Of a stretch of DNA of 64,000 nucleotides, positions 465 to 15,554 are shown one piece after another. Both the position numbers and the translations under genes were made by a program. The notes under the pieces are model-generated. The model saw only the letters and a list, made by a program, of their open reading frames with translations. It was not told the DNA's origin and did no database searches. Within the stretch, counting starts at the first letter, position 1; the number at the start of each line of letters is the position of its first letter. This stretch comes from an uncultured Roseicyclus sp. (GTDB lineage Bacteria; Pseudomonadota; Alphaproteobacteria; Rhodobacterales; Rhodobacteraceae), in the NCBI GenBank assembly GCA_947500415.1, contig CANMRT010000001.1:1266982-1330981 (forward strand), read 5' to 3'.

Positions 465-539
465 GCCCGGGTAGCTCAGGGGTAGAGCAGTGGATTGAAA
501 ATCCTCGTGTCGGTGGTTCGATTCCGCCCCCGGGCACCA
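465..539 (+). tRNA. tRNA-Phe (anticodon GAA)
   Basis: The sequence folds as a full cloverleaf: acceptor stem GCCCGGG pairing with CCCGGGC, D-arm with AGCTCAGGGGTAGAGC, anticodon loop TTGAAAA with GAA, T-arm with GGTTCGATTCC, and an encoded CCA at 537-539. Its last 15 bases are repeated at 15540-15554, which makes this gene the integration site of the island. The gene stays intact after integration because the island supplies nothing upstream of the repeat. Confidence 0.97.
525..539 (+). repeat. attL: 15-bp direct repeat at the tRNA-Phe 3' end
   Basis: CGCCCCCGGGCACCA, the T-arm/acceptor/CCA end of tRNA-Phe, occurs again exactly at 15540-15554. Bases on either side of the two copies differ, so the repeat is exactly 15 bases. 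This is the expected footprint of a tyrosine recombinase that targets the 3' end of a tRNA gene. Confidence 0.88.
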
Positions 540-776: not shown

Positions 777-1367
777 ATGCCAGCAGATCGCTATTCGACC
801 TTCTCGGAGCTTTTCCGTCACGAGACGGCAGGGAGCGATTATCGTATTGAAGCCCGTCACGTGATAAACTCAGCCTTGGTTATGGCGCCCCACGGCGGGC
901 GGATCGAACCAGGGACTTCCGAGCTTGCGCGAAGTGTGGCCCAAGATGACAAGTCCCTCTACCTATTTGAAGGCGTGAGAGCCGGATTGAGGCATCACGA
1001 GTTGCACGTGACTTCCCACCTATACGATGAACCACTCGCTCTCGAAATTGCAGCTTGAACCGATCGTTTGGTCGCATTTCATGGCCGCGCTGATCGAGAC
1101 GACCCCGAAACGGTTTGGATTGGTGGCCTCGACACAGACATGAGTGGGCTGATCTTGGATCATGTCGTTCGAGCGGGTTTCGTCGGTAGGCTGCAACAGG
1201 GTGAGCTTGCCGGAACTCATTCAAATAACATCTGCAATCGTGCGCGAAGTGGCAGGGGTGTGCAGGTGGAGCTGCCGAGAGCCTTGAGAAACCGATTGAT
1301 GAGAGAGCAGGAAAGCTTGGTTCAGTTCGCTAGAGCTGTGCGAAATGCTCTCGAAGACCTGATCTAG
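777..1367 (+). pseudogene. Poly-gamma-glutamate hydrolase family protein, interrupted by in-frame TGA
   Basis: Two consecutive open segments in the same frame (777-1055 and 1059-1367) are separated by one TGA at 1056-1058. Together they give about 195 residues resembling the phage/Bacillus poly-gamma-glutamate hydrolase family (PghP/YjqB type). The first part has the metal-binding-like APHGGRIEPGTSELA. The second has VAFHGR, VWIGGLD, NICNR and GVQVELPR in the family order. These zinc peptidase-like enzymes cleave poly-gamma-glutamate, and phages use them to strip capsules. The reading frame is intact on both sides of the TGA, so the loss looks recent, or the stop may be read through. It lies at the left end of the island. 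Confidence 0.72.
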
Positions 1368-1397
1368 CCGCCTTGGCGGCCTGTACGGATCTCGTGC

Positions 1398-1772
1398 TTA
1401 CGAAAGACTGGCGCGTTGCGCTCTCCCGCCCCTAGCTCGTCGCGGTTCTTCTGTCTCTCCCAACCCTTCCAGCGCCACCGGTGCCGTGCCTGGGAACTCA
1501 ACCATCAGCTTGAGCTCCCCGCCCATCGCGCGGACGTAGCCCGTCAGTGTCGAGAGCAGGAGGTCGCTCTGGCGTTCGTACTTCGCGACGGTGGCCTGCT
1601 GGACGCCAAGGGTTTCCGCCAGTTGGACTTGGGTCAACTTCTTGGCCTTCCGCAGCTCCTGCAGCGTCAGGTACTCGGCATGCAGCCGATCCGCTTCGGC
1701 CTCGATCGCCGCGCGGCGGGCGGGGTCGAGGGTCGCCAGCTTGTCCTTCAGGCTCCGGGCCATCGTCATCAT
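1398..1772 (-). CDS. HigA-like antitoxin, XRE-family helix-turn-helix
   Basis: The 124-residue product has a Cro/C1-type helix-turn-helix near residues 45-85 (KLTQVQLAETLGVQQATVAKYE). A basic tail follows. The ATG at 1772 overlaps the toxin stop codon in ATGA, which indicates translational coupling; a second ATG at 1763 is possible. In HigBA-type modules this protein neutralises the toxin and represses the operon. The order, toxin first and antitoxin second, is the HigBA arrangement. Confidence 0.85.
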   Translation of the reverse strand: MMTMARSLKDKLATLDPARRAAIEAEADRLHAEYLTLQELRKAKKLTQVQLAETLGVQQATVAKYERQSDLLLSTLTGYVRAMGGELKLMVEFPGTAPVALEGLGETEEPRRARGGRAQRASLS

Positions 1773-2122
1773 CCTTTCCGTCTCTCCAGGTGGCGGTCGA
1801 ACCGATCGTCCGCCCGGGCGATGAGCGACTTGTAGAACCGCTTCTCGCTGCCACCCGACTTGTCCCCGCCGACGAGCAGGATCGCCTGCCGATCGGGGTC
1901 GAATGCGAAGGCGATGCGCCAGACGCCATCGGCGGCGTTGCAGCGCAGTTCCTTCATGTTGGCATGCTTCGACCCGGTCAGGGTGTCCGCATGGGGTCGC
2001 CCGAGCATGGGGCCTTCCCGCTCGAGCAGCAACGCCCGGGCGAGGATCGCGTCCTGCACCTCTTGTGGCAGGGCATCGAATTCCGGCTCGAATTCCTCGG
2101 CAAAGGATACGGTCCACGGCAT
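1769..2122 (-). CDS. HigB/RelE-like toxin (phage Gp49-like family)
   Basis: A 117-residue basic protein with the features of the Gp49/HigB branch of RelE-fold mRNA interferases: FDALPQEVQDAILARALLL near residues 15-35, KELRCNAADGVWRIAFAFD near the centre, and LLVGGDKSG with FYKSLIARAD near the end. These toxins cleave ribosome-bound mRNA. It is transcribed ahead of its antitoxin with a 4-base overlap. It probably stabilises the island or contributes to phage defence; that role is inferred. Confidence 0.85.
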   Translation of the reverse strand: MPWTVSFAEEFEPEFDALPQEVQDAILARALLLEREGPMLGRPHADTLTGSKHANMKELRCNAADGVWRIAFAFDPDRQAILLVGGDKSGGSEKRFYKSLIARADDRFDRHLERRKG

Positions 2123-2222
2123 CGGGTGAATACTACCTTGAGGATATATAGACTTGAAGAACTAATTTTGCAAGAACGGGCTGCGGGACGGTAGCGTTGC
2201 GTCCGCAGGAACGGGGCGAGGA

Positions 2223-2459
2223 TCAGTCTGCCTCTTTGAGCAGTCCCTGTGCCATTTCCGCTGCGCGAGCGAGGCCGCGAATCCGTGTGCCGGGGGCATC
2301 CGTTGCTCGCTGGAACTCGGCAAACGCCTCGGGCGAAAGCGTTGAGGATTCGCCTTCGTCCAGCTTCGGTTTTTCGGCCTTGGTCATGCCTGCCTCCATA
2401 GTGTTCTTCTTGGTCGTTTCAGTCTTTGCGTGGGGATTTGGTGTATCACGTTTCGCCAC
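2223..2459 (-). CDS. Small hypothetical protein downstream of integrase
   Basis: A 78-residue charged protein with no recognised domain. The GTG start at 2459 overlaps the end of the integrase gene by 14 bases, and a GGGAGG ribosome site sits about 9 bases before it. Internal ATGs at about 2399 and 2387 would give shorter forms. The C-terminal half (LSPEAFAEFQRATDAPGTR...) looks helical. The coupling to the integrase gene suggests it is real, but function is unknown. Confidence 0.45.
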   Translation of the reverse strand: MAKRDTPNPHAKTETTKKNTMEAGMTKAEKPKLDEGESSTLSPEAFAEFQRATDAPGTRIRGLARAAEMAQGLLKEAD

Positions 2460-3558
2460 CCCGCGCTTCCTCCCTTTCCGGCCCGCCCACGTCCCGCGAC
2501 AACAGCTTCATCCCCGAAGCCGCCAGTACCTTCTGGCGCGCGGCGCGGGTGTAACGCGAGGCTTCCTTTATGGTCGTCCAGCCGAAGATCGCCATCAATT
2601 GCCGCTCGGTCGCGCCGTTCTCGGCCGCCAGCGCCGCGCCGGCCTTGCGCAACCCGTGGGCGGAGCAGTGCTGCAGCCCTGCCTCATCGCATTGCTTGCG
2701 GAACCAGTTGCCGAAGCCGTTCGAGGTGAAGGGTTTGCCGAAGGCCGTGACGAGGAAGGCGAGGTTGCCCGTGGGCGTGGCGTCGAGCACCGCCTTCAAC
2801 TCCGGCAGGACCGGGATGGAGAGGGTGACGGGCTTGCGGTCGCGGTTCTTGGCCTGGGTCAGGGTGATCCAGCCGTCCTTGATGTGCTGCGGCCCGAGCC
2901 GGACGATGTCCGACCGCCGCTGCCCTGTGTAGAGCATGAGCGCCAGCGCCAGCCGCGGCTTGCTGCCGATCCGGTGATGATCCTCGAACTGCCGGACCTC
3001 CTCCATCGTCCAGGAATGGAAGCCGTCCCCCTTGGCCTTGAGGTAGGGCACGTCGCGGGCCAGGTTGCGCTGCGCCAGCTCGTATTCGACCGCGAAGGCA
3101 TAGACCTGCCGCAGCGCCTTCACGAAACCGTTGGCGGACTCGGGCCGGTCGGCCATCTCGTCGCGCATGCGCCGGACGTGGCGTGGCTCCATCAGCGCGT
3201 AGGGCTTCGATCCGTTCTTCTCGCAGATCCGGTCGGGGATGCCGCGCCGGACATACTTGGTGCGGCCACTGAGGCGCTGGTATTCAGCGGAAACGTAGTA
3301 CTGCTCGCAGAGCCACTTGAAGCTGCCCTTCGATCCGCGCCGCTCGAGCGGTCCGGCTGGCGCGCGGAGCGTCGCCCCCATCATCGCGGCGCGGTATTCG
3401 GCGAGGAAGTCCTCCGTTCCCGGCTGGCTGCGCAGCCGCACCTTCAGGTGCCCGGGTCGCCGTAGGTAGACGCGCACGTTCCCGTGCCGGTCGGTATCCT
3501 CGATGACGTGCTTCAGGCGGATGCTGCCCGAGCCGTCTCTCATCCTGAATGAGGGCAT
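2446..3558 (-). CDS. Tyrosine-type site-specific integrase
   Basis: A 370-residue phage-type integrase. The catalytic domain shows Arg in TGQRRSDIVRL (about residue 214), Lys in the AKNRDRK turn, HGLRK (His301, Arg304), a Trp in the second His/Trp position (GWTT, about 327) and the nucleophile Tyr336 in SRYTRAA. The N-terminal half carries the core-binding helices. It would catalyse integration at the tRNA-Phe 3' end and, with the neighbouring excisionase-like protein, excision. All catalytic residues are present, so it may be active. Confidence 0.93.
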   Translation of the reverse strand: MPSFRMRDGSGSIRLKHVIEDTDRHGNVRVYLRRPGHLKVRLRSQPGTEDFLAEYRAAMMGATLRAPAGPLERRGSKGSFKWLCEQYYVSAEYQRLSGRTKYVRRGIPDRICEKNGSKPYALMEPRHVRRMRDEMADRPESANGFVKALRQVYAFAVEYELAQRNLARDVPYLKAKGDGFHSWTMEEVRQFEDHHRIGSKPRLALALMLYTGQRRSDIVRLGPQHIKDGWITLTQAKNRDRKPVTLSIPVLPELKAVLDATPTGNLAFLVTAFGKPFTSNGFGNWFRKQCDEAGLQHCSAHGLRKAGAALAAENGATERQLMAIFGWTTIKEASRYTRAARQKVLAASGMKLLSRDVGGPEREEARGGET

Positions 3559-3583
3559 TTCACGCGCTGCCTTTCGTCAGCCG

Positions 3584-3823
3584 TCAGTCGTCCCAGGGAT
3601 TGTGGTCGGAGCGATCCCCATCAGGGATCAGCTCGAACGCCAGGTCAAGTTTTTTCCGGTCCCAGACGGTACGGGCATTGATCCGCTTGGGCGGCGGCAT
3701 GCGCCGGTCGCGGACCAGGTGATCGAAGAGCGTGGGCGAGACCCCGATATAGGCCGCCGCCTCGGTCCGCGAGAGACCGCGGGGCGCGAGCGTGGGCGGG
3801 AGAATGGCGGGGCGCTTGGGCAT
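3584..3823 (-). CDS. Excisionase-like helix-turn-helix protein (AlpA/MerR fold)
   Basis: A 79-residue protein with a winged-helix DNA-binding motif: GLSRTEAAAYIGVSPTLFD followed by VRDRRMPPPKRI and TVWDRKKLDLA. This is typical of AlpA/Xis-type recombination directionality factors. The start at 3823 (MPKRPAIL) is chosen because the longer open frame upstream has no motif. It sits 25 bases upstream of the integrase gene on the same strand, so the two are probably co-transcribed. Confidence 0.72.
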   Translation of the reverse strand: MPKRPAILPPTLAPRGLSRTEAAAYIGVSPTLFDHLVRDRRMPPPKRINARTVWDRKKLDLAFELIPDGDRSDHNPWDD

Positions 3824-4795
3824 GGGGCGAAGGGTTTGGGTTTCGGATGCCGCGAGGATGCCGGAAAGAGAGGGAAGAACGAAGCCGAGAACGGGCGGGG
3901 TAGGCTTGTGGCGAGGAATGACAGGCGGGCGGCGGGTGTGGAGAAACGTGGCGATCTCCTGGCTGCGCTGGTGTAGGCGTGCGACGTCGCGCAAAAGGCT
4001 CGGTGCCGCATACAAAATCGTGCGAAATCAGACGATTGGCGAATTTCTCGCCGCAAGGCCCGAGAGAATACCGCGCATTTCTCCATTCGACATCAACAGC
4101 CTGCAAGAATCTGCGGCAAGCCTTTTATCTTGCGCTCCCATTGTTGAGCGCGAGATGTCATCTCCCGATGCCCGGAGTTGTCGCCTCTTCAACGGACCGG
4201 CTTCTAAGCGCAGGCTTCCGCACTGTGCATACCAGTGGTCTGACATCACTACGAAATTGCAGGAAACCTGCACACGACCGATTTGCATGCACGCGAAAAC
4301 GCCAGTCACGTCAGTGGCTTGCGGCGTTCGTGGCAGGTGCTTTTATCTTGCCCTTTTTCCTTCGCGCTTCAGTCCGAGAGTTTCTATTGCGCCTGTCGTT
4401 CGCCATTCCATGCTAAGCTTCGATACTGTGAGAAGGGGCCAACTGGTCAGGCTGATCACCAGAACGAGTCGCGAAATGCGCCGAAAGTGTTCCAAAATCA
4501 TGCAATTCGCGCGCCTCGTCGCTGCCAAAGGACTGTTGCAGGGCGACGTCCATTCTGCAGTCGAAGTGCCGATTGAGAGCCCGGCCTCAAGCTTTTCAAC
4601 TCGCTCGCAGCGGCGGATCGCAAGCCCATCTTCGTCGAGAAAGAGCCTAGCGCTAGTCATTGGCATCTGCTCCGGCGACCGCCTACCGCTAGTCTCGAAA
4701 ACTATCGTTAGGCTGCCTTGCTCTTCGCCAAAAGCACACTGTTCATTCTGCGGTCGCCGCCGAGGTACTACTGCAAACATGCGGCACTCTCTCGG
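3824..4795. other. Gene-free stretch of about 970 bp inside the island
   Basis: No open frame here has recognisable protein character; the longest ones look like chance frames. Base composition is less GC-biased than the surrounding genes. It must hold the promoter for the excisionase/integrase transcript and the 3' end of the TOPRIM transcript. Decayed sequence or an unrecognised RNA cannot be excluded. Confidence 0.5.
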
Positions 4796-5506
4796 TCACG
4801 GACGCATCGTATTGTGCTCCAGTCCTAGGTAGTCGCGCAGTGCGCAGATCAAACGTATGAGGTCGATCATGTCCGCAACGAGTGCCTCCTCTGCGACATA
4901 CCTCTGCAACCGTCCCTTACCTGCTTTGGTGAATTCGCGATGCACGCGCCCCGCCATCGTCTGCTCGCGGATGAGCGCGCCGGGATTTGCATTGCAGAAC
5001 CCTCGGATCAGATCTTCAGGCAGGAAATCCTCAATCTCCCAATCCAGCCCTGCGCAACTGCCGTTCTGCGCCTCAGCCCGGCGCTGTAGTTCGGGACCGA
5101 GGACGCCGTTCGAAGTCGGCATGATCGGATGCAGTAGAAACACGTCCCGGTAGTGCTTCACCCGGAAATCCATCTCGCAAAGCATGCGGGCGTGCTTGCG
5201 GCCCGCGCGGTCGTTGTCAAACAGACCCACGAACTTTCGTTCCGTCATCATGTTTGCTGCGTCTTGGGAACCCATCTGCCGCAGCGTCTGCAACTCTCGC
5301 ACTACCCCTTGAACGCCGCCGTCATCCTTCAGCCCCGCCTCGAATACGGCAAATCCAGAGTCGAAGAGGTCATGATTGCTCTCGCGTTGCCAAAGATCTC
5401 TGGCGAGGCGCAAGTAGCGGACATCGCTCGTCCCTTCGACAAGGACGTTGGCCGTGCCGACGTTCCAGCCTTTTCCATTGGCGTATCTCTCTACAAGTCC
5501 AATCAA
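4796..5506 (-). CDS. TOPRIM-domain protein (OLD/DUF4435-like), candidate defence effector
   Basis: The 236-residue product shows a TOPRIM fold signature: VLVEGTSDVRYL with Glu24 and Asp28, and GLFDNDRAG with Asp97 and Asp99, followed by an acidic EIEDFLP segment near 157-163. TOPRIM domains bind metal and cleave or rejoin nucleic acids. Related stand-alone forms serve as nuclease effectors in systems such as PARIS. The start is a TTG three bases after the stop of the STAND-like gene, so translation is coupled. The assignment to an exact TOPRIM subfamily is uncertain. Confidence 0.7.
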   Translation of the reverse strand: MIGLVERYANGKGWNVGTANVLVEGTSDVRYLRLARDLWQRESNHDLFDSGFAVFEAGLKDDGGVQGVVRELQTLRQMGSQDAANMMTERKFVGLFDNDRAGRKHARMLCEMDFRVKHYRDVFLLHPIMPTSNGVLGPELQRRAEAQNGSCAGLDWEIEDFLPEDLIRGFCNANPGALIREQTMAGRVHREFTKAGKGRLQRYVAEEALVADMIDLIRLICALRDYLGLEHNTMRP

Positions 5507-5509
5507 CGC

Positions 5510-8500
5510 TCAACCTGCCATCAGCGGCCGCAGTAGCGGACCGTTATGGCCGAAGGAGATGAGGCCGCTGATATTCGCGCCAGGCCGCAGTTGGATGCCA
5601 TCGAATTCGGCTACGCGAAACGGGACCCGGTCGTTCTGGAGTTCTTGCACTCTGGCATGAAGTCGTGCTCCGTCTCCGCCCGAGGCGATGCGGGCGCGGA
5701 CCTGCCGTCTATTCCCTGTGCTCTCGTCGATCAACCAGCGGAGACGGTCCGGAACTTCTACGTAGTGTTCCCCTCGCGCCCAGAGCTGGCGCAGTTTCCC
5801 AAACCGCCGCGATGCCTCGTGATGGCGGTTTCTCTGATGCATGAGAATCGCCAATTCCAGCTCTAGTTGTGGCGACAGGATCGCCCGGTTGCCATCAAGG
5901 GTTTCGAGCAACTCAAGCTGGAGGGCGAAATCCTTCGGGTGATCCATACACGCCAAGATGTAGCGCAGTCGGACCGCCTGTGCGTTGGACCGCAACAGTG
6001 GATGCCCTAGCCGGGCGGCCGCGTCGATCCGGTTCGCGCGGGGGAAGTCATCCAGCGACATGCCCTCACGCCCGGTTATCCCTTCGCCCAAGGCAGACAG
6101 TGCTTGCAGGATTGCCTCGCCTTCAGATGAGGGCTCGGTGTCATGCACCGCACCGGCTGACCGAAGCAGCAGTTCGAACGCCTTGTCGGCGAGGCGCGAC
6201 AGCGCATTTCGCCGTAACTCTGCGGTCTCTCGCTGCATGGCCCCGTAGACGATCCCCAGAACCTCTATTGCGACGCTCGCTGCACCCTCGGGATCGTCGT
6301 TTGCCCCTATGAGCCGATCCCGCGCATAGATTTCCAGAACGTATGAGTTGTCAGGGTTCAGCCTATACGCCCTGTAGGTTGCGTTGTTTGCTTTGGAGCG
6401 CAGGGTTGCCACTTGTTCGGCGGGGGCTCCCCAACGCTCTTCCACCTCGGCGAGGTCATGATAGGCGTGTGCGAGCGAGTTATAGAGATTGAGGTCGGGT
6501 TCGCCTCCTGGGTCGTTCTCGAGCGCAAGCGCGGTCTCGATATCCTGGGTGGCTCGCCGTAGTAGATCGGTACGCTCGTCATCATCGATGGGGAACAGGA
6601 TCTCGTCCTTCGCGATGCGCCGCCGCGATATCGAGCAATGGTGAAGAAACGTCCGGCTGGTCATCCGAAATGCTTTTGGCATCGCGTCCAGAGCCTCAAG
6701 CGCTTCGCGCCAGTAGAGGGCGAACTCGCTGCGGCCCTGTCCGGGGTCGATCTTGAAGATGCTGGTGGCGAAGGTTTCGGCCAGTTCCACCAGATCCGGG
6801 TGCGCAATCATCGGGTTAGAGGCGATCCGCCGGAGAACAATCAGCCGCAGGTGATCGGGATTCTGCGCCTCCGTCAGCTCGACCGAATCGCGGACGGGGG
6901 CATCGTAAAACAGCCCGGTCAGAAGGAACCGTCCAAGTTGGTCGTGGATCATTGCCCAGTGGCTTACCGTATCAAAGCGCTGGCGCACTACGCCCAACGC
7001 CCCGACGGTCGATTGGAGGTCAGAAAGCTTGTCACGGGTCGGAAAGTCGTCGGACCGTGGCAGCAGTGTCTCGGGCAGAAGCTGGCGCACCGTGCTCATG
7101 GCGGCGATATCGATTATCGCGCGCCGCACAACCGGATCAGCAACCTCCTGCCGAAACTGTTCGTAAAGCCAACCTTGTACCGTTTCGGTTAGATCGATTT
7201 GCCTCTGCAGCCAAAATGCCAGCGCGATCCAGAATACGGAATGGCCCGCCGCGGGTCCGACGAGTGAGTGGTTAACGAACGCCTGCCATTCGTGAGCATC
7301 GCGCGCCGTGCCCAGTGGTTGAAGAAACCGGTTTAGGTGCCGGCCCAAGTCCATCGCCGCTTCCTGCGAGATCTCGTGGGACAGATCGCACAGATTTTCC
7401 AGACGCTTCTCGGCGTAGATGGCGACTGGTAGCAGTGCATCGGTCACGAAGACGATGCAGATTCGGCGCCCAGCCTCTGTGATCTGCCTGGCGAAAGTCG
7501 CGATATCTTCTTCGCGTCCCTCCCACTGCGACCGATCGAACACGATGAGCCAAGGTACCTCGTAATGGTGTAGACCCTTCCCGATTTCGGCTGAACCGAT
7601 AGCTTTCAAACAGGAGGTAAGGAAATTTGCTACTGCGCGTCCGTTGGGCGTAAAGGGGGCTTGAGTGGCTATCAGCGTCGGATAGCCGTCCATGGCAGCA
7701 CCGAAGGCAAGTTCTCGGATGAATGTGGTCGCCCCTGCTCCGGATTCCGCCCGGATGTAGAACATCCGACTCGCCTCCGGTCCGTTACGGTCGAGCTGCC
7801 GCAGCACCATTGTTAAGGTGTTCCTGGCGCGGTCGTCCCGAGACCACGGCATTTGCGCTGCATAGGGTCGCCATGAGGCCGAGGGATCCTGGAAGAACCC
7901 GTTGATTTCTTCCGAAGTCAGCCCGTCTGGCGTCACGTATTCCAGATGAGCCTCGGAGAGCAGTTCGTAATTGCCCAGCAGCGGATGCTCGGGGTCATCG
8001 CGTCCCGACAGGTCGACGCGGTGTCGGGCCCCTTGGGCATCCCGGACGCGGATGATGAGCCGGTCGTCGGCGCGCTCCCTATAGCGCCTGTGCAGGGCTT
8101 CCGAAAGCAGCGCCGCGGGGGCTGGCAGCAGCGTTATCCGCCGCGCCCACGCGTCGGCCTGCCAATCGGTGATCTTCTGTCGAGCTTTGGGATCATCGCT
8201 GACTATCGTCAGGCCGCACTGGAATCCGTCCTGCCAAAGTTGTCCCAATTCAACGGGCAGCGTCAGATCGGGTCCGCCGAGCACCACGAGATTCCGGACC
8301 CCGCGCTGCTGCAACGCCATGATCATTTCCATCCGACGTGCCCGAGCGGCGAACCCTGACGTATCGGCCTCGGGGCGGCCGTTGAGCAGAAAGATTGGAA
8401 GGCTCCGGGGCGGCAGCACGGTGTGTGAGGGTGGGACATCGATGACGTGCACCAGCCCTCTCCGGCGAACGAGCGGAGTTTCGATCGCACTGTCCAAAGC

Positions 8501-8707
8501 ATCAATAGCCTTGAGCAGGCCATCCGATGCGATCTCGCTAAGGACGAATTCCCAGGGCAGGCTCAACACCCTAGCGGTCGCTTCTGGCCCTGCCGCCTCG
8601 GCATACGACGGCATTAGCCATAGGCTGGCATCACGGGAATCAAGTTCCGCAAGGATAGGAAGGGCGTAAGGAGTCAGAATTTGTAGACCGTCTGTGATGT
8701 CGCTCAT
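5510..8707 (-). CDS. Large STAND-like P-loop protein with helical-repeat C-terminus
   Basis: A 1065-residue protein counted from the ATG at 8707. Residues 1-210 form an alpha/beta region that I do not recognise. A P-loop-like AESGAGATTF at about 320-329 and a Walker B-like PWLIVFD ending at Asp391 indicate a STAND-type NTPase module. The invariant Walker A lysine is replaced by alanine. From about residue 700 the sequence looks like TPR-type helical repeats (LYNSLAHAYHDLAEVEERWG, ATYRAYRLNPDNSYVLEIYA). Such an architecture fits an intracellular sensor of phage or foreign material. It is followed directly by the TOPRIM gene. The function is inferred, and no named system is matched with confidence. 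Confidence 0.65.
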   Translation of the reverse strand: MSDITDGLQILTPYALPILAELDSRDASLWLMPSYAEAAGPEATARVLSLPWEFVLSEIASDGLLKAIDALDSAIETPLVRRRGLVHVIDVPPSHTVLPPRSLPIFLLNGRPEADTSGFAARARRMEMIMALQQRGVRNLVVLGGPDLTLPVELGQLWQDGFQCGLTIVSDDPKARQKITDWQADAWARRITLLPAPAALLSEALHRRYRERADDRLIIRVRDAQGARHRVDLSGRDDPEHPLLGNYELLSEAHLEYVTPDGLTSEEINGFFQDPSASWRPYAAQMPWSRDDRARNTLTMVLRQLDRNGPEASRMFYIRAESGAGATTFIRELAFGAAMDGYPTLIATQAPFTPNGRAVANFLTSCLKAIGSAEIGKGLHHYEVPWLIVFDRSQWEGREEDIATFARQITEAGRRICIVFVTDALLPVAIYAEKRLENLCDLSHEISQEAAMDLGRHLNRFLQPLGTARDAHEWQAFVNHSLVGPAAGHSVFWIALAFWLQRQIDLTETVQGWLYEQFRQEVADPVVRRAIIDIAAMSTVRQLLPETLLPRSDDFPTRDKLSDLQSTVGALGVVRQRFDTVSHWAMIHDQLGRFLLTGLFYDAPVRDSVELTEAQNPDHLRLIVLRRIASNPMIAHPDLVELAETFATSIFKIDPGQGRSEFALYWREALEALDAMPKAFRMTSRTFLHHCSISRRRIAKDEILFPIDDDERTDLLRRATQDIETALALENDPGGEPDLNLYNSLAHAYHDLAEVEERWGAPAEQVATLRSKANNATYRAYRLNPDNSYVLEIYARDRLIGANDDPEGAASVAIEVLGIVYGAMQRETAELRRNALSRLADKAFELLLRSAGAVHDTEPSSEGEAILQALSALGEGITGREGMSLDDFPRANRIDAAARLGHPLLRSNAQAVRLRYILACMDHPKDFALQLELLETLDGNRAILSPQLELELAILMHQRNRHHEASRRFGKLRQLWARGEHYVEVPDRLRWLIDESTGNRRQVRARIASGGDGARLHARVQELQNDRVPFRVAEFDGIQLRPGANISGLISFGHNGPLLRPLMAG

Positions 8708-8966
8708 TGTTGCCTCTTCAGTTAACGCACCCATTCGGGCTCCGATATACGAATTGGAAAACCGCAAACACTCAAACACCCATCTCGAGAAGTTGAGATG
8801 GACCGAGCTCTGCGTCTTTCACAAAGCACCTTCTGAACAAGCAAAGAAAAAGTCAAAGACAACCAGCAGCGGTCTTTCGTGGCACGATCCCGGAACGCGC
8901 GCAACGGGACAGAATAGCCCCAAATCCGTAACACCGATCTTGGCAGGACTCTGAAGAAGCTTGAGT
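8708..8966. other. Intergenic gap between PLD-helicase and STAND-like genes
   Basis: A 259-base gap within an otherwise tight minus-strand gene set. It has a small inverted repeat, CATCTC at 8781-8786 and GAGATG at 8795-8800. No gene was seen. It may carry a promoter for the STAND-like/TOPRIM pair. Confidence 0.4.
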
Positions 8967-11900
8967 CTAAGATCTCGCTTCGAAGATAACCGCCACCCGA
9001 CTGAGAACATCCATCGGTTGGCCTTCCGACAAGGCCGTGCACTGAGCCAAGAGTTTCTGCATCCTTTCACTTACAGCCGAGCGGACATCGTCTGGCTGCT
9101 CTTGGAAAGCTCGGTAGATCGCGTCGATCCCGATGTAGTCGGGTATTTCGCCGCCAGATGCACTCCTTTGGCTAACCGTCTCCTTCGCCTCGATCCAGAA
9201 AACATCGAGTTCGTGTGCCCAGGCTTCTGCCAGCTTTTCCAGGGTCGGCAGAGTTAAGGAACCGAAGAGCGCTTGACCAGCATCACCGGTGTCGCGTCCT
9301 GATAGGAAACTTGCGAGCGACGCGAGAAGGGAAACCGTTCGAGCTGGCCGAACATCCCAGTGGGTCAGATGCGCGAGGGTGCTGCCGAGACGGCTGAACG
9401 TAGCTGATATCGCATCTAGTTCTGGGCGGTGGCTTTGCACGCCTCGGCGGCGTGTTTCGGCATAGGCGGCGTATAGGAGTCTAGCTGCTTCGACCTGGTC
9501 GCCAATGATCTCTGCGCGCCCATCGACATCTCGAACGGCAATCAAGCGAGGCGGTAGAACGGTAGGGTCTTGGGGGCTGCCTGTGCGACCGCCCAAGAGG
9601 AGGATGGTGACTGGCTCAACTGAGGACAGAAGGCAGAGTTCCGCTCCCCAGAGACCTCGAGGGGTTGCGTTCCAGACCCGGCGCAGAACGTCAGCAGGCA
9701 ACACACGCCGAAGCTCTTCAAGCTGATCGAAGTAATTATTGGGGCGGAGGATGCGCGGCTTCTTGACCTGTTCGAGAACAAGATCGGTCAGATCACCGGC
9801 AGAAAACTCAACCAACTCTGATGGTAGGTCTTCGGCGCCAACACCTGACAGGAGAGCGATGCTGGCGACACGAGCGCGCGCCTTGTGATCCGATGACAGA
9901 ACCAGCCCGGGCAGGTCGAAGGTGTAGTAGTGGATGCGGGAATTGGGACTGTCGATCCGGTCGATCCGGCCCAACCCCTGAATGAGGCTCTTGACGTCGG
10001 ACGTGACGCCAATGATCCCAAGCGCAGAGGCGATCTGGAGGTTGATCCCTTCCGCCATCTGGAATGTGAGGAACATGGCCCGTGGCTTTAGCGGGGCGAC
10101 ATGTTTCCCATCGATGCCGAAATACTCCTGCGCATCTGCTCCCGATCGGATGTGATGCAGCTTCTTACCGGTCTTGATCCGTGCACCAGGTGCGACCACG
10201 AACACCCCGGGCCTTCGGCCACGTTGACCTGCAAGAAGTCTGGCATAGACTTCGAGAACGCCGACCCGCTCAGCAAGGAAAATGGCATGGCCATGCTTTC
10301 GAAGGATGTCTCGCATGACACCGGCCCGGGCTTCATCAATGCTGTCGAGGCTAGGATGATTCAGAAGTCTACTAATCCGGCTACAAACCGGCGTTTCGCT
10401 GTCCTCAGATTCGGCATCGACTTCTTCGAGCAAAACTCCATCCGGAATAGCAATGCCGCGGGCGTTTAGTTTCTCGGCGCGTCTTAGGTTTTCTCCGATT
10501 GATGCTCGCCCTCGCTGATCGGCTTCACTGTCGCGCTCTCTGGCCCATTCTTCGCGTGCAAAGGTTATCGACGCGCGCAGCAAAGCGAGGAAGTTCCGGA
10601 TGTGAATACGCGATTTGTCGTGGAATTTAATTTCTGTGTGGGCAGCGCGTTGGGGGTCGGCAGACACAAGGGTGACCCCAGTCGTGATGCACTCCGCTAG
10701 TGCCTTGATCCGCGCAATGATTTGGCGCTGATGATCGCTCAGTGCAGTATCTTCCCGGTGGCTTCGGATCGTTGGGTAAACGAAAGCACCGGTTTTTCGA
10801 TCTGGACTCTCCCCAATGCAATCCCGTTGGCGCCGCACGACGTATGGCGCCAAGGCTTCTGCCAAGCCTTCCTGAAGAGCACTGATTTGCAGCCCGCCTG
10901 TTTCTAGCTGGCGTTCGACTTTGTTGACTTCGACCTGTAGCGCTTCCGCGCTGTCGAACAGATCGTCCTGTACCCTTTGATCTTCGATCCGGCGGTTCAT
11001 CTGGTCGAGGTGGCGCACGAGCTCTCCCCGCTTTCGAACCTTGGCCATGTGTTGGTTGATCTGCTCCGTGATGGGCGGAGGCACATAGATCGACGCGCGC
11101 TTCTCATGGAATGCAAGCAAGCCGTCCAGGCCTTGGTTTCCCATTAGCGTGGCCGACAAACAGGCGGTCCAGATCGCGGGACTGCGTTCGAAGACAAGCG
11201 AACGTGCAGAAGGTGCAAGGTATCGCGAGCTCAGTCGGTGGCTTTCATCGACGATCATTGATGCAGACGAACGGACCGCCCGGTTGATCTCGTCCAATTC
11301 CGCAGTCTCCTCCTTACCTCGCCGCGACAGGTGACTGTGCTTGATCGGTTTGAAGTTCGCAGGCGCGTTTGTTGTCCAGTTCTTCAGAACACTTGCGGGT
11401 ATCAGGGCGAGCGAGCCAAGCCGTTGTTGATCGGCGCGCTCTCCCCAGGAAAAGACCGTTTGCCCATGGCTGACCGGTAGAACCGTCGCCAGGTGTTTTC
11501 CGATGTCGGTTTTCCCTGCGCCTGTTGGCGCCTCGACAAAGGCAAAGCCGTGTTCATAGACCGTCCCTGCAGCCTCATAGACAAGATCGGCCTGGAAGGG
11601 TTGAGGCGGACGTCCGGCGCTGGTTTCGCCTGCGACACGCCAGGGGGTGAAGGTTGTGGCTTCGTGAACCGTTCTGGCCACTGCTTCTTCGGGTGAGACA
11701 AGGCGGATCAGCGCTCGAAGGATTTCCAGCGCTGTTTCTGTCCAGTCGCGCCCCATGTCCCAATACTGCTCAGCAGCCGCGCAACGCGCAGTCGCAAGTT
11801 CGGGCCAGGCATCGGCGTCGTCCATGAATTCCAGATTGCGGCGCAAACCGTTGATCGAGAAATTGGCACTTCCCGAAAGTGCCTTGTCCCCACCTACAAA

Positions 11901-12416
11901 AAGCTTCGCATGAAGCATTGGTGGACGGCGCCCTAGTTTTTCTTCTGCCAGATCAGGATCGAAAATACGGAATTTGATAATCCCGCGCTCGATTGCATCC
12001 ATTGCAAGAACTGCCCGCAAGTCGGCTAGATCAACAACAGAAAAGCCCCTTGCGCCAAGGAAATGCTGGCGCGCTTCATCTGCTACTGATCGGCCACTGC
12101 CACCTAAAACCTGTCGTGTTTCGGTGTTGGAACCAAAGGCAATGCGAATACTGCCCTCTGTGCGTTCGCCAAGGTTTTCGATTGTTTCGAGCAAGATGGT
12201 CAGAGAAGACAGGAAGTCCTGATAACCTGTGACCATCAAACAACTCGGTTGCCTTAGAACAGTTTTGATTAGGTCACTCACCGGGCGCGTTGCATTGTCG
12301 CCCCAGGCCCCATGATGAGACGCAGGGGGCATTTCGGTCGTGCGCTCATCTCGATCAGAGTCGCTTCCGCGCGAGAAAAAGCGTGAAATCAGTCCTTGCC
12401 GCTCCCTGGTTCCCAT
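8967..12416 (-). CDS. PLD-like nuclease fused to SNF2-type helicase, candidate defence protein
   Basis: A 1149-residue protein. Residues about 50-225 form a phospholipase D-like domain with one HxK motif (HAKLFVGG, His169/Lys171) and SGSANFS. A superfamily 2 helicase follows: Walker A APTGAGKT at 296-303, DESH at 390-393, SAT at 421-423, and motif VI IQGLGRIDR at 812-820. The last motif resembles RapA/HepA-type SNF2 enzymes. A charged insertion at about 450-680 separates the two helicase lobes. The order is nuclease then translocase, as in several anti-phage proteins. It is the first gene of a minus-strand set leading into the STAND-like and TOPRIM genes. Confidence 0.78.
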   Translation of the reverse strand: MGTRERQGLISRFFSRGSDSDRDERTTEMPPASHHGAWGDNATRPVSDLIKTVLRQPSCLMVTGYQDFLSSLTILLETIENLGERTEGSIRIAFGSNTETRQVLGGSGRSVADEARQHFLGARGFSVVDLADLRAVLAMDAIERGIIKFRIFDPDLAEEKLGRRPPMLHAKLFVGGDKALSGSANFSINGLRRNLEFMDDADAWPELATARCAAAEQYWDMGRDWTETALEILRALIRLVSPEEAVARTVHEATTFTPWRVAGETSAGRPPQPFQADLVYEAAGTVYEHGFAFVEAPTGAGKTDIGKHLATVLPVSHGQTVFSWGERADQQRLGSLALIPASVLKNWTTNAPANFKPIKHSHLSRRGKEETAELDEINRAVRSSASMIVDESHRLSSRYLAPSARSLVFERSPAIWTACLSATLMGNQGLDGLLAFHEKRASIYVPPPITEQINQHMAKVRKRGELVRHLDQMNRRIEDQRVQDDLFDSAEALQVEVNKVERQLETGGLQISALQEGLAEALAPYVVRRQRDCIGESPDRKTGAFVYPTIRSHREDTALSDHQRQIIARIKALAECITTGVTLVSADPQRAAHTEIKFHDKSRIHIRNFLALLRASITFAREEWARERDSEADQRGRASIGENLRRAEKLNARGIAIPDGVLLEEVDAESEDSETPVCSRISRLLNHPSLDSIDEARAGVMRDILRKHGHAIFLAERVGVLEVYARLLAGQRGRRPGVFVVAPGARIKTGKKLHHIRSGADAQEYFGIDGKHVAPLKPRAMFLTFQMAEGINLQIASALGIIGVTSDVKSLIQGLGRIDRIDSPNSRIHYYTFDLPGLVLSSDHKARARVASIALLSGVGAEDLPSELVEFSAGDLTDLVLEQVKKPRILRPNNYFDQLEELRRVLPADVLRRVWNATPRGLWGAELCLLSSVEPVTILLLGGRTGSPQDPTVLPPRLIAVRDVDGRAEIIGDQVEAARLLYAAYAETRRRGVQSHRPELDAISATFSRLGSTLAHLTHWDVRPARTVSLLASLASFLSGRDTGDAGQALFGSLTLPTLEKLAEAWAHELDVFWIEAKETVSQRSASGGEIPDYIGIDAIYRAFQEQPDDVRSAVSERMQKLLAQCTALSEGQPMDVLSRVAVIFEARS

Positions 12417-12473
12417 GTGCCGTTGTCTTCCTATGCCCCCAGGGGCAACGTTAAATCGGTTTTGTCCAAGCTA

Positions 12474-14648
12474 TCAGTCTTGATTTAGAATTCCGAGTTC
12501 CGCCCAAAGCTTGCACGGTGCTGGCGAAGCTAATTCCCACTGTACCTCAATTGGCTTCTCACCCTTCCACCCGGCGAACCTGGGTTGCCCGCAATAGATG
12601 AATGGATTGACCTTGCCGTTCACCTTGTTCCCGCGGCGGATGAACAGGTGCACTTCGTGGCCTTCCTCGCCGCTGATAATACGGCCATGCTTGCTGTCCT
12701 GGCGCGTCTGGTTCTGGCTGAACCATTTCAGGCGTGACGGGCTGAGGAATGCGTTTTCGTAGGTCAGGTCCTGGGTCGAGACATTGGCAAGCAGGATCAT
12801 GATCTTCTTTTCGGGCAGTGCCTTCATCCCGGTGCGCCAGAGGTTCTGTTGATATTCTTCGCCAAAGAATGCAGCAATGTCAGGCACGTAGTAGCGATTC
12901 CAAAGCTCCAGAGCCTGTGGCTTGCCGACAAAGGTCGCGGAGGCCTCGGCGGCCTCGCGGACGATGGGCGTTTCCGCCAGGCGCCATTCGACCAACTCGC
13001 GCACGAGCGGTTCCAACTGGCCTGACGCGTCAGGTCGCGCCAGTCGAAGGCCGTCGCTGCCCTGAGCCACGTGCGGGTTGAAGGCGAGCTCTGACGCGCC
13101 ATCGCTCGGTTGCCGCCCGGCTACGACGTCGCGCAATCCGGTTAGGGCGGCGCGGGACAGCCCCCTGGGCCGTTCCAACTCGCGCAGCAAGCGGCCGTGG
13201 GTGGCAAAAGCACGTTCGGGCAGTGGGTCGCCCATGTCCCGGACGAAGTCGAACCAGCCGCCGTGGCCGGAAGAGCGAGGATCGAAGCCGTTGCGGAAGA
13301 CTTCGACGGCCGTGGGCCGGATGCTGTTCCGGTCCCGGAAGTCGAGATAGAAGGCTTCGAGCTCCGCCGCGCCTTCTCTCGGGCGGAGGAGGTTGCGCAG
13401 GATGTCGATGACCTCGAGCTCATAGGTGATCTCGCAGCCTTGGGGCATCTGAAATTCGCCGGCCTGAAGCGCCTCTAGTTTGGTCGAGATCGAGCGATCA
13501 CCTGCGCCCGCCTGCAAAAGGGTCGCGACCTTGGTCAAGAAGCTGCGGTGGTTACCGATATGGTCGATCACCTGAAGCACCTTGCCTTCGACGCGGCGCA
13601 ATCCACGACCAAGCTGCTGTAGCCAGATGATCCCGCTTTCGGTCGGGCGCAGCATCAGAACAGTGCCTATCTCTGGCACGTCCACGCCTTCGTTGAACAT
13701 GTCGACCGCGAAGAGGATGTCGACTTCTCCGCGACCGAGCGCTGCCAGGGAACTCGCCCGCGGAGCGGAGCCTTGGCCCGAATGGACCGCAACAGCGTTC
13801 AGGCCGGCGGTGCGGAAATAATCCGCCATGTAGTCGGCGTGGCGCATGGAACAGCAAAAGCCGATCGCTGGGCCGGTTGCGCGTTTGCGGTATTGTTCCA
13901 ACGCATTCAGCGCCCGCGCCTCGGTGGCGAGTGCGGCGTCTAGGGCGGTGGGATCGAACTGGCCGGAGCGCCAGGGGATCTGGGCGTAATCCACGTCATC
14001 CGGCACGCCGAAATAGTGAAAGGGCGACAGGTGGCCAGCGTCGATCCCGCGGAACAGGTCGCATTCGTAGACGAGGTTTTCGCCGCAAAGGCCAAGCAGA
14101 TCGGCGCCATCGGTCCGGTCGGGCGTCGCGGTCAGGCCCAACAGGAAGCCGGGCGTGAAATGCTCGATCAGCTTCTGATAGGTGCGGGCGGCGGCATGGT
14201 GGAATTCATCAACCACGATGTAGTCGAAATGGTCCCGGTCGAACTGGCGCAAGTGACCGACGCGGCCTAGTGTCTGAACCGAGGCGAAGAGGATTTCCGC
14301 ATCCGCCACTTTCTCAGTGCCCGTGTAGCGGCCGAGCTTGGCTTCGGGGCGCACCTTGCGAAAGGCCGCCATCGCTTGGGTCAGAATTTCGTCGCGGTGA
14401 GCAACGAACAGGATGCGGTCCGCCCTGGCACGGATCGTGTCGAAGGCGGCCAGCCAGGTCTTTCCCAGCCCGGTGGCCAGCACGACAAGTCCGGCGCGGT
14501 GGCCGTTCGATCGGCTCTGCGCGAGCGCTTCCAATGCCTCCCGCTGAATCGTGTGCGGCTCTGGCGGCGGACCTTCCTCGGCAACAACGCGGCAGTGAAC
14601 TCGGGCATCGGCCGCGCCCTGCGACGTTTCGCATAGGCTTCGATCCAC
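12474..14648 (-). CDS. SF2 helicase with DUF3427-like C-terminus (3' part of a frameshifted PLD-helicase gene)
   Basis: This part has Walker A ATGLGKT, VVDEFHH, LTATPDR and QQLGRGLRR, all typical of DEAD/H superfamily 2 helicases. A long C-terminal region resembles the DUF3427 part of restriction-like PLD-helicase proteins. Homologous proteins usually carry the PLD domain and helicase in one chain. Here the PLD part (14381-15322) is in another frame. The junction is near 14569-14573, where one missing C would restore PLLPRKV-PPPEPHTIQREA. If translated alone it would need the GTG at 14648. It may be a pseudogene, a programmed frameshift or a sequencing error. Confidence 0.8.
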   Translation of the reverse strand: MDRSLCETSQGAADARVHCRVVAEEGPPPEPHTIQREALEALAQSRSNGHRAGLVVLATGLGKTWLAAFDTIRARADRILFVAHRDEILTQAMAAFRKVRPEAKLGRYTGTEKVADAEILFASVQTLGRVGHLRQFDRDHFDYIVVDEFHHAAARTYQKLIEHFTPGFLLGLTATPDRTDGADLLGLCGENLVYECDLFRGIDAGHLSPFHYFGVPDDVDYAQIPWRSGQFDPTALDAALATEARALNALEQYRKRATGPAIGFCCSMRHADYMADYFRTAGLNAVAVHSGQGSAPRASSLAALGRGEVDILFAVDMFNEGVDVPEIGTVLMLRPTESGIIWLQQLGRGLRRVEGKVLQVIDHIGNHRSFLTKVATLLQAGAGDRSISTKLEALQAGEFQMPQGCEITYELEVIDILRNLLRPREGAAELEAFYLDFRDRNSIRPTAVEVFRNGFDPRSSGHGGWFDFVRDMGDPLPERAFATHGRLLRELERPRGLSRAALTGLRDVVAGRQPSDGASELAFNPHVAQGSDGLRLARPDASGQLEPLVRELVEWRLAETPIVREAAEASATFVGKPQALELWNRYYVPDIAAFFGEEYQQNLWRTGMKALPEKKIMILLANVSTQDLTYENAFLSPSRLKWFSQNQTRQDSKHGRIISGEEGHEVHLFIRRGNKVNGKVNPFIYCGQPRFAGWKGEKPIEVQWELASPAPCKLWAELGILNQD

Positions 14649-15322
14649 GCTGCCGTCAGCGGCTTGACCTCTGGCCGTACCAGCAGGTCCTCAAAGGCCG
14701 CTCCGACACTGTCAGCCGCTTCTTCGGAATGCAGGTTCCATTCCACACCATCGGTCAGCGCCGATTGGGACAGGTTGGAGCTACCAACAATCGCCGCCCC
14801 GCGTGCATCGGCGGCCCGGAACAGCCAAGCCTTGGGGTGAAAGCTGAGGCCACCCGTCTCGAAAACGAAAAGCTCCGCGCCTTCCAGGTCCAGCAAACGC
14901 GCCAAGGCTGTCGGGTCGGTCGTATCGAGATAGTCGCCCACCACGATCCTGAGCCGTCCCCCACGTGCCAGCAACTCGCGTAACCAGGGCTCGAGCAAGG
15001 CCACGCCGCTGTCCATGGCAAAGGCAACGGCAAGGTCGACTGAGTGCGCGGTGTCCAACCGTTCGGCGAGCAACGGCAGGAGCGGATCGCGGCCGCCGGT
15101 CGTCAGGCGTGCGCCACTGGCTTCCCGCAGGTGAAAATGGCCGTGATCGGATGAGGCAGCGAAACCAGCCGTGCCGCGACCAAGTGCGGCGCCCACTTCG
15201 GCTAGCATGGTCATCTGTTCCGGGCCGGTCAGGTCATCCCACGCGGGCACATGCCGAGGGGCGGGGATCAATCCGGCCTCACGGTGCATGCAAATCGGGC
15301 AGGTGAGGCGCGGGTCAGTCAC
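14381..15322 (-). CDS. PLD-like nuclease domain (5' part of a frameshifted PLD-helicase gene)
   Basis: The start is a GTG at 15322. The N-terminus carries CPICMH, a short zinc-knuckle-like start. A PLD-like domain follows with FHPKAWLF (HxK) and IVGSSNLSQSAL, the usual one-motif arrangement of restriction-like PLD enzymes. After about residue 250 the reading becomes unnatural, because the true continuation, the helicase, lies in the neighbouring frame. The two open frames overlap by 268 bases. This is the last gene before the right end of the island. Confidence 0.75.
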   Translation of the reverse strand: MTDPRLTCPICMHREAGLIPAPRHVPAWDDLTGPEQMTMLAEVGAALGRGTAGFAASSDHGHFHLREASGARLTTGGRDPLLPLLAERLDTAHSVDLAVAFAMDSGVALLEPWLRELLARGGRLRIVVGDYLDTTDPTALARLLDLEGAELFVFETGGLSFHPKAWLFRAADARGAAIVGSSNLSQSALTDGVEWNLHSEEAADSVGAAFEDLLVRPEVKPLTAAWIEAYAKRRRARPMPEFTAALLPRKVRRQSRTRFSGRHWKRSRRADRTATAPDLSCWPPGWERPGWPPSTRSVPGRTASCSLLTATKF

Positions 15323-15446
15323 ACTCGTCCAGATTGATCTTCTCTACTGAGACCATTGGTAAGGATCGCCGCTGGCATGTCCAGGCGCCAGGACGATGCG
15401 GCGCCGGCTCGAGCTTTGATTTCCGGCCTTAATCCGCTTCGGAAAA

Positions 15447-15501
15447 GTGGGACACATATCCGGAAAAACCCAATAAACATGGCGAAAGAAAAAAGTCCCA
15501 C
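15447..15501. promoter_or_regulatory. Right-end arm-type recombinase sites (inverted GTGGGAC pair)
   Basis: AAAAGTGGGAC at 15443-15453 and AAAAAAGTCCCACCG at 15489-15503 repeat the two words found at the left end (587-621). AAAAAAGTCCCAC is also the inverse of the left-end GTGGGACTTTTTT at 615-627. They lie 39-93 bases inside attR. The role as binding sites for integrase or excisionase is inferred from symmetry. Confidence 0.5.
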
Positions 15502-15539
15502 CGACCCATAACTTAATATATTAAAAACAGTCGTTTATG

Positions 15540-15554
15540 CGCCCCCGGGCACCA
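15540..15554 (+). repeat. attR: second copy of the 15-bp tRNA-Phe end
   Basis: This is an exact copy of tRNA-Phe bases 525-539, CGCCCCCGGGCACCA, with no other tRNA sequence around it. It is followed immediately by CTTTTTCTG, which looks like the original downstream end of the tRNA transcript before insertion. It marks the right boundary of the island. Confidence 0.88.

Follow-up and report, generated by a model that had tools for sequence, protein, structure and literature searches.

A 64,000-nucleotide stretch of the 4.01-Mb genome of an uncultured Roseicyclus sp. (here called the window; C1:1266982-1330981) carries on its minus strand, within a genomic island, two adjacent genes that form a conserved and mobile two-gene unit. 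Gene B encodes a large STAND NTPase with an inactive sirtuin domain, and gene C encodes a small protein predicted to be a TOPRIM-type nuclease. Judging from comparative and predicted-fold evidence, we consider it reasonably likely that B and C make up a self-contained system against phages or other mobile elements, in which a STAND alarm would control a TOPRIM nuclease docked on it. An initial annotation of the window had joined these two genes to an upstream PLD-helicase gene (gene A) as a three-gene defense system. All three reading frames exist where that annotation placed them, but A is not part of the unit.

Loci encoding B were collected from a one-genome-per-species scan (14 loci, 30-92% identity), from plasmids (one locus), and from IMG/VR (two loci). 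The genome scan relied on two short peptide patterns, so the 14 loci it yielded do not amount to a complete count. After two pairs of redundant records were collapsed (L011 with L045, identical over 14,357 bp, and L047 with L049, 99.95% identical over a 2,093-bp overlap), 16 distinct loci remained, including the window, from Proteobacteria and Planctomycetota. In every one of them, C is the gene immediately after B. A tblastn survey (E 1e-3) of 18 B loci, namely the 14 scanned loci plus L006, L010, L011, and L040, several of which have short flanks, found C after B in 16. One exception, L047, is a contig that ends at B and whose overlapping contig L049 carries C; in the other, L040, a PRTase-CE gene occupies C's place. 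The single match to C in the plasmid search adjoins B, both C matches in IMG/VR are on the two contigs that carry B, and the INPHARED phage records contained no match to either gene. A C profile run against 385 genomes of the class matched the window's copy and, beyond it, a single sequence in G281, weakly and in part (E 4.9e-4). The two genes have diversified together (Mantel r of 0.988 between B and C distances, p 0.0001, n = 14; r of 0.963 within eight distant loci), and ratios of nonsynonymous to synonymous substitution rates of 0.08 to 0.22 for both B and C (15 pairs each) indicate purifying selection. The initial annotation had also described the two genes as translationally coupled, in agreement with which C starts with a TTG only 3 nt past the B stop codon; close relatives have GTG, ATG, or TTG at the same position.

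Gene A fares differently. The three-gene proposal would have the helicase process invader DNA, B sense, and C cut, and it draws on the fact that the genes are adjacent, on the same strand, and in the same island. One further observation in its favor is that in L053 a PLD-SNF2 helicase gene lies just upstream of B-C. That helicase, however, belongs to another family, has no tblastn similarity to A, and comes with a DUF1156 methyltransferase, and each of the two matches a separate PADLOC family over nearly its full length. In the window, 259 bp separate the A stop from the B start. Neither A nor gene D, a SauUSI-like gene directly upstream of A that the initial annotation missed, was found at any of the 18 other B loci surveyed, and neither B nor C was found in any of 12 stretches around relatives of A. 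These stretches represent 12 of the 13 genomes, among 295 of the family, that contain an A relative. The window's own genome is counted among them and is represented by a second, degraded A copy; two stretches (L038 and L039) are short contigs, and G626, with a fragment match, was left out. In genome G419 a sister island matches the window collinearly over 889-3937, 4112-4414, and 8974-15554, and the main differing stretch is the one that holds B-C (window 4415-8973), where G419 has another gene and keeps A and D. B-C therefore appears to be cargo in a variable slot beside the D-A pair. With no co-occurrence in either direction, a condition that the initial annotation had itself named as refuting its proposal was fulfilled, and the A-B-C unit was rejected; as far as co-occurrence allows it is refuted, and we regard it as extremely improbable. 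The conserved, mobile STAND and TOPRIM pair that is left is a likely defense system, with an instructive resemblance to human SAMD9.

The mobility of this pair is apparent from DNA comparisons made within window positions 3901-9600. Similarity to L010, L043, L044, and L048 runs from 4796 or 4800, at the C stop, to 8708-8716, at the B start, with nothing beyond; similarity to L011 covers 4786-8692 and that to L046 covers 4792-8185, the latter ending there because the L046 contig begins inside B. In the five close loci that span both genes (L010, L011, L043, L044, and L048), homology ends within ~15 bp of the B start and the C stop. By this comparison B-C is mobile, evidently exchanged within its gene boundaries between islands and phage contigs. 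In L010 the pair precedes phage terminase and portal genes, and in L011 it follows genes for the terminase, portal, and minor head proteins of a second, unrelated phage that we take to be Mu-like (PHROG matches); both copies are 90% (B) and 85-86% (C) identical to those of the window. Since these pairs are placed among phage structural genes, phages or prophages carry B-C. A defense or mobile-element gene is near the pair in 12 of the 16 loci, window included. Such neighbors include Cas3 (L047), type III restriction-modification (L052), cytosine methyltransferases (L050), AbiEii with AbiEi (L043), the PLD_Helicase and DUF1156 methyltransferase of L053, TniQ (L055), an IS3 transposase (L006), and integrases or recombinases, a serine recombinase among them (L048, L053, and L056). 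The pair probably functions in defense, as the initial annotation had proposed.

That annotation had described B as STAND-like, which is borne out by a Pfam nSTAND_NTPase7 match of 4.8e-178, but it overlooked an iSirtuin domain (2.4e-54). Both families (PF24403, iSirtuin; PF24404, nSTAND7) occur in all 15 B orthologues, and the existence of the Pfam names shows that someone has already described the two domains. The longest open frame of B is 5510-8779, and the best start, supported by conservation, is the ATG at 8707. From that start, the protein consists of an inactive sirtuin domain (residues 18-200), nSTAND_NTPase7 (302-699), helical repeats (~700-980), and a beta-rich C-terminal tail (~1002-1060). 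The P-loop of the window protein reads ESGAGATT (321-328), without a lysine, and its Walker B motif reads WLIVFD (386-391; consensus W-[LV]-x-V-x-D). The P-loop pattern E-x-GAG-[AG]-TT is present in 15 of 15 orthologues and a lysine in none, with GGTT in eight and GATT in the seven that include the window; glutamate E321 is invariant, and no histidine occurs in the P-loop stretch 318-330. At the place in the alignment where we presume the sirtuin motif LHG would be expected, 14 proteins have LNG and one has LRG. The sirtuin domain falls in Pfam's inactive-sirtuin family in all 15.

The predicted model of B (predicted local distance difference test [pLDDT] 78, predicted template modeling score [pTM] 0.51) has helical repeats followed by five strands at 1002-1060, which were compared with the TPR and OB fold of SAMD9. 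In a Foldseek search of the PDB, six human SAMD9 chains came out on top (best E 2.5e-17), with alignments of 1246-1304 columns, gaps included, and template modeling scores of 0.29-0.38. SAMD9/SAMD9L is the best fold match of B; it is followed by EfAvs5 (2.4e-10), the AVAST5 filament (9.9e-7), and Apaf-1 (8.8e-6), and 24 PDB chains reach E 0.001. A B profile searched against the sequences of PDB chains matched mainly CapA/CapB kinases, via residues around the P-loop, and not SAMD9. In an earlier study, the SAMD9 core is described as AlbA, a variant Sir2, a STAND NTPase in which GGT/S replaces GKT/S, TPR, and OB, bacterial SAMD9-family proteins are already reported, and the AlbA_2/tRNase domain is described as lost in some members (Mekhedov et al. 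2017; PMC5445408). B shares with SAMD9 the order of variant Sir2, STAND NTPase, and helical repeats, its model ends in a beta-rich tail at the position of the SAMD9 OB fold, and its P-loop lysine is replaced, by glycine in eight and alanine in seven of the 15 proteins. Unlike SAMD9, B has no SAM domain and no AlbA/tRNase domain (no AlbA_2/tRNase Pfam match in the 15 members at E 0.01), with a separate TOPRIM-like protein instead, and it lacks the conserved histidine upstream of the P-loop, having E321 there. Because the order from Sir2 to repeats and the P-loop oddity are held in common, and AlbA and the histidine are lacking, we describe B, from its alignment and model, as built like the SAMD9 core and do not claim it as a member of the family.

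A sirtuin fold, a STAND NTPase, and C-terminal repeats are also the components of Avs5 (AVAST type 5), and the Foldseek matches to EfAvs5 and to the AVAST5 filament would accord with a sirtuin in B that is still an NADase and with C as an accessory. The sirtuin of Avs5 is described as the active effector, and nSTAND3 is named as an Avs5 domain (PMC12931631). In B, by contrast, the sirtuin is classed as inactive, LNG or LRG replaces the expected motif, a second gene is present, and nSTAND7 is found in 15 of 15 proteins and nSTAND3 in one, weakly (E 0.0052). We therefore do not place B in Avs5 and consider an NADase function of this kind very unlikely.

The description of C as a TOPRIM protein in the initial annotation is upheld by motifs and a model. 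E24, D97-x-D99, I158-E159-D160, and K197 are invariant in all 16 C orthologues, the predicted model is confident (pLDDT 91), and its order of strands and helices fits what we take to be the TOPRIM order. C thus appears to carry the TOPRIM pattern of E ... DxD on a Rossmann-like core, although its fold and profile matches are weak. In the PDB, Foldseek ranked the C-terminal region of OLD (6nk8) first, with T7 gp4 primase at rank 8, a second OLD structure (6p74) at rank 18, and RecR at rank 24; among the BFVD matches, several are annotated as Toprim or primase, mixed with unrelated folds. Searches of the window copy of C against Pfam, PHROG, and PADLOC found no match, a PADLOC search with the 16 C proteins returned nothing at E 0.1, and a search of C against PDB chain sequences gave three hits that are not credible (best E 0.25). 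DUF4435, presumably the Pfam family of AriB, was not matched by any of the 16 proteins.

STAND alarms combine a sensor at the C terminus with a nucleotide switch and an effector at the N terminus (PMC13245274). In the mechanism we propose for B-C, the C-terminal helical repeats and beta-rich tail of B would sense a product of the invader, upon which the nucleotide-binding domain would switch and oligomerize. The N-terminal sirtuin fold, its active site lost, would be a dock that holds and activates C. We suggest that the effector role has moved to C and that the sirtuin has become the dock, because the B sirtuin is classed as inactive and C adjoins B in all 16 loci. C would be a metal-dependent TOPRIM nuclease that cuts nucleic acid, and its activity would stop the growth of the infected cell. 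TOPRIM nucleases of defense systems are described as cutting tRNA (AriB) or DNA (GajA and OLD) (PMC12409363), and SAMD9 cuts tRNA-Phe (PMC13245274). Because of AriB and SAMD9, our guess for the substrate of C is tRNA or another RNA; that it is tRNA itself seems possible by this analogy, though on balance not probable.

A more specific version, which we hold only tentatively and regard as rather doubtful, is that B-C represents a SAMD9-type alarm of bacteria whose effector is detachable, its Sir2-STAND-repeat-OB core acting on C, a tRNA nuclease of TOPRIM type supplied in trans, through the dead sirtuin as dock. In animals this core is fused to a tRNA-Phe nuclease, and a distant cousin would pair it with a phosphoribosyltransferase-like protein. 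This cousin is found at L040:8134-12745, where a distant nSTAND7 protein (hhalign E 1.1e-13 against B) is followed, with an 8-nt overlap, by the PRTase-CE gene. The protein has no iSirtuin match, and its downstream partner is phosphoribosyltransferase-like and not TOPRIM. Since a PRTase-CE gene takes the position of C beside this distant B relative, the single case suggests that the effector of B-like alarms can be exchanged.

Tight coupling, a small partner, and residence on mobile elements and phage contigs would also be expected of a toxin-antitoxin-like pair in which B holds a toxin, C, inactive, and defense or maintenance of the element follows from the loss of B. B greatly exceeds the usual size of an antitoxin, however; it has a sensor-switch architecture, and the proteins closest to it in fold over the full length are immune alarms, and so we consider this arrangement unlikely.

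Several observations weigh against an alarm that activates a docked nuclease. No sequence profile confirms the TOPRIM assignment: the best Pfam E value of the 16 C orthologues is 0.13, to unrelated families; the best Foldseek E values are 0.025 (PDB) and 0.017 (BFVD), in lists that contain many unrelated folds; and hhalign comparisons of C with OLD-like TOPRIM (nine sequences; E 0.005, probability 7%) and with DUF4435 (three sequences; E 0.04 at best) were not significant. The B model is only moderate in its pTM, unrelated helical-repeat proteins (Ctr9 and the Ski complex) also reach E <1e-3 in its Foldseek search, and SAMD9 was not reached by a B sequence search at E values up to 10. Nor is the likeness to SAMD9 exclusive, because Avs5 is reported to resemble SAMD9 too (PMC12931631). 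The neighboring genes were chosen by eye before profile testing, and in the stretches covered no defense or mobile-element gene was noted beside L044, L046, L051, and L054 (4 of 16 loci), the first two and the last of which are flanked on one side by little or no sequence. These four loci would be in keeping with a pair that has a housekeeping or regulatory function, such as repair of RNA or DNA, and for which mobile elements are no more than vehicles. Against it stand the gene-bounded exchange between islands and phage contigs and a very patchy distribution: nSTAND7 was matched in 5 of 385 genomes of the class, above the cutoff in two (the window's own and G358), and above the cutoff in 1 of 398 genomes of the phylum, own genome included. 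We give a housekeeping role scant credence.

PADLOC assigned neither B nor C to a known system, which on this point bears out the initial annotation. A search of all 15 B proteins yielded three matches, each to a single member (best E 0.024), none of them convincing. Mokosh was rejected, as A, B, and C had no Mko match at PADLOC E 0.1. PARIS (AriA and AriB) likewise combines an NTPase gene with a TOPRIM gene; it was rejected, since AriA is an ABC ATPase (PMC12409363) and B a STAND NTPase, and DUF4435 is absent from the C proteins. No STAND and TOPRIM pair of the B-C kind was found in the literature searched, which did not cover most subscription papers, and the search returned no paper on iSirtuin and none on PRTase-CE. 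B-C thus adds a STAND and TOPRIM pair that the 2023 PADLOC-DB does not recognize, and it offers a compact, clonable two-gene system whose core is laid out like that of human SAMD9. A rabbit SAMD9 fragment requires its SIR2 domain to cut tRNA in vitro (PMC12331169). If B activates C, the roles of the lysine-less P-loop and of the dead sirtuin could be separated from that of the nuclease, and if the SAMD9-type version is true, it would hint at what the puzzling SIR2 domain of SAMD9 does.

The features of the island are listed in Table 1.

Table 1. Positions of the main features in the window and the evidence for each
Feature	Position	Strand	Evidence or remark
tRNA-Phe, attachment gene	465..539	+	ARAGORN
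Left attachment (att) repeat	525-539		Last 15 bases of tRNA-Phe (3' end); repeat D3
Tyrosine integrase of the island	2446..3558	-	Phage_integrase 9.3e-18
Small helix-turn-helix (HTH) protein beside the integrase	3584..4015	-	Weak HTH_31 and HTH_3 matches, below cutoff
Gene C, 236 amino acids, predicted TOPRIM-type nuclease	4796..5506	-	Invariant motifs, model
Gene B, 1065 amino acids	5510..8707	-	Pfam, alignment, model, Foldseek
Gene A, PLD-helicase, 1149 amino acids	8967..12416	-	PLD and helicase matches; neighbor of the B-C unit
Gene D, SauUSI-like type IV restriction enzyme	12474..15322	-	PLD, helicase, DUF3427
Right att repeat, island end, CGCCCCCGGGCACCA	15540..15554	+	Exact 15-bp repeat

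The initial annotation's integrase island is confirmed by the integrase and by the exact 15-bp repeat at both ends, which delimit an island of 15.0 kb in tRNA-Phe. The G419 sister island terminates at the same point, with one mismatch in its att repeat. Transcription on the minus strand follows the order D, A, B, C, the small HTH gene, and the integrase; a scan for promoters and terminators stayed at chance level. The insertion of the island in tRNA-Phe looks like a coincidence with respect to B-C, because other copies of the pair sit elsewhere.

A and D are separate, restriction-like genes that share the island of B-C. The naming of A as a PLD-helicase can be kept, with weak matches for the PLD part (PADLOC DpdK 2.3e-6 and DrmC 2.7e-5; Pfam PLDc_2 at 15.4 bits, below the cutoff) and helicase matches below the Pfam cutoffs. 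D has the order PLD, helicase, and DUF3427 of SauUSI (PMC3874153), with PADLOC mREase_IV matches of 4.1e-96 and 1.2e-19 and Pfam ResIII and DUF3427. It differs from SauUSI, an enzyme that acts on DNA with m5C or hm5C, in being paired with A in relatives and, in the window, in carrying a frameshift that breaks it into two frames, 14381-15322 and 12474-14648; its PLD piece has a weak MkoB match (2.7e-4). Intact D is a single 949-amino-acid frame in each of four related genomes (L028 to L031). Of the 12 A stretches, 4 have D immediately upstream of A, at a spacing of 57 nt in G419 and G632, as in the window, and of 66 nt in G560. In G418 (Neotabrizicola plasmid NZ_CP069374), D is at the end and A at the start of the record, so that they adjoin if this record, listed as linear, is circular. 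With this proviso the D-A pair occurs in five genomes, the window's included, and it is possibly a restriction unit of its own (8967-15322). In the other eight of the 13 genomes, the A relatives are at most 57% identical or fragments, and the stretches from seven of these contain no D.

The defense-like genes downstream of A vary. B-C is found there in the window, SIR2 and HerA in G418, a NACHT protein on the other strand in G560, and, in G632, frames that by appearance resemble insertion sequences, followed by a UvrD-type helicase. In G419 the slot (L028:3704-8383) holds a gene for a 1559-amino-acid DUF4011/MTES_1575 helicase-nuclease, the PADLOC candidate PDC-S37. McrBC-like genes follow the A relative of L032 (56-57% identity). 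The degraded second A relative of the window's genome (L037, G000:C1:634500-653500) is ~35% identical and has two internal stops. Near the left end, inside the island, a RelE/ParE-like (Gp49) toxin gene and an overlapping HTH frame were observed at 1398-2122.

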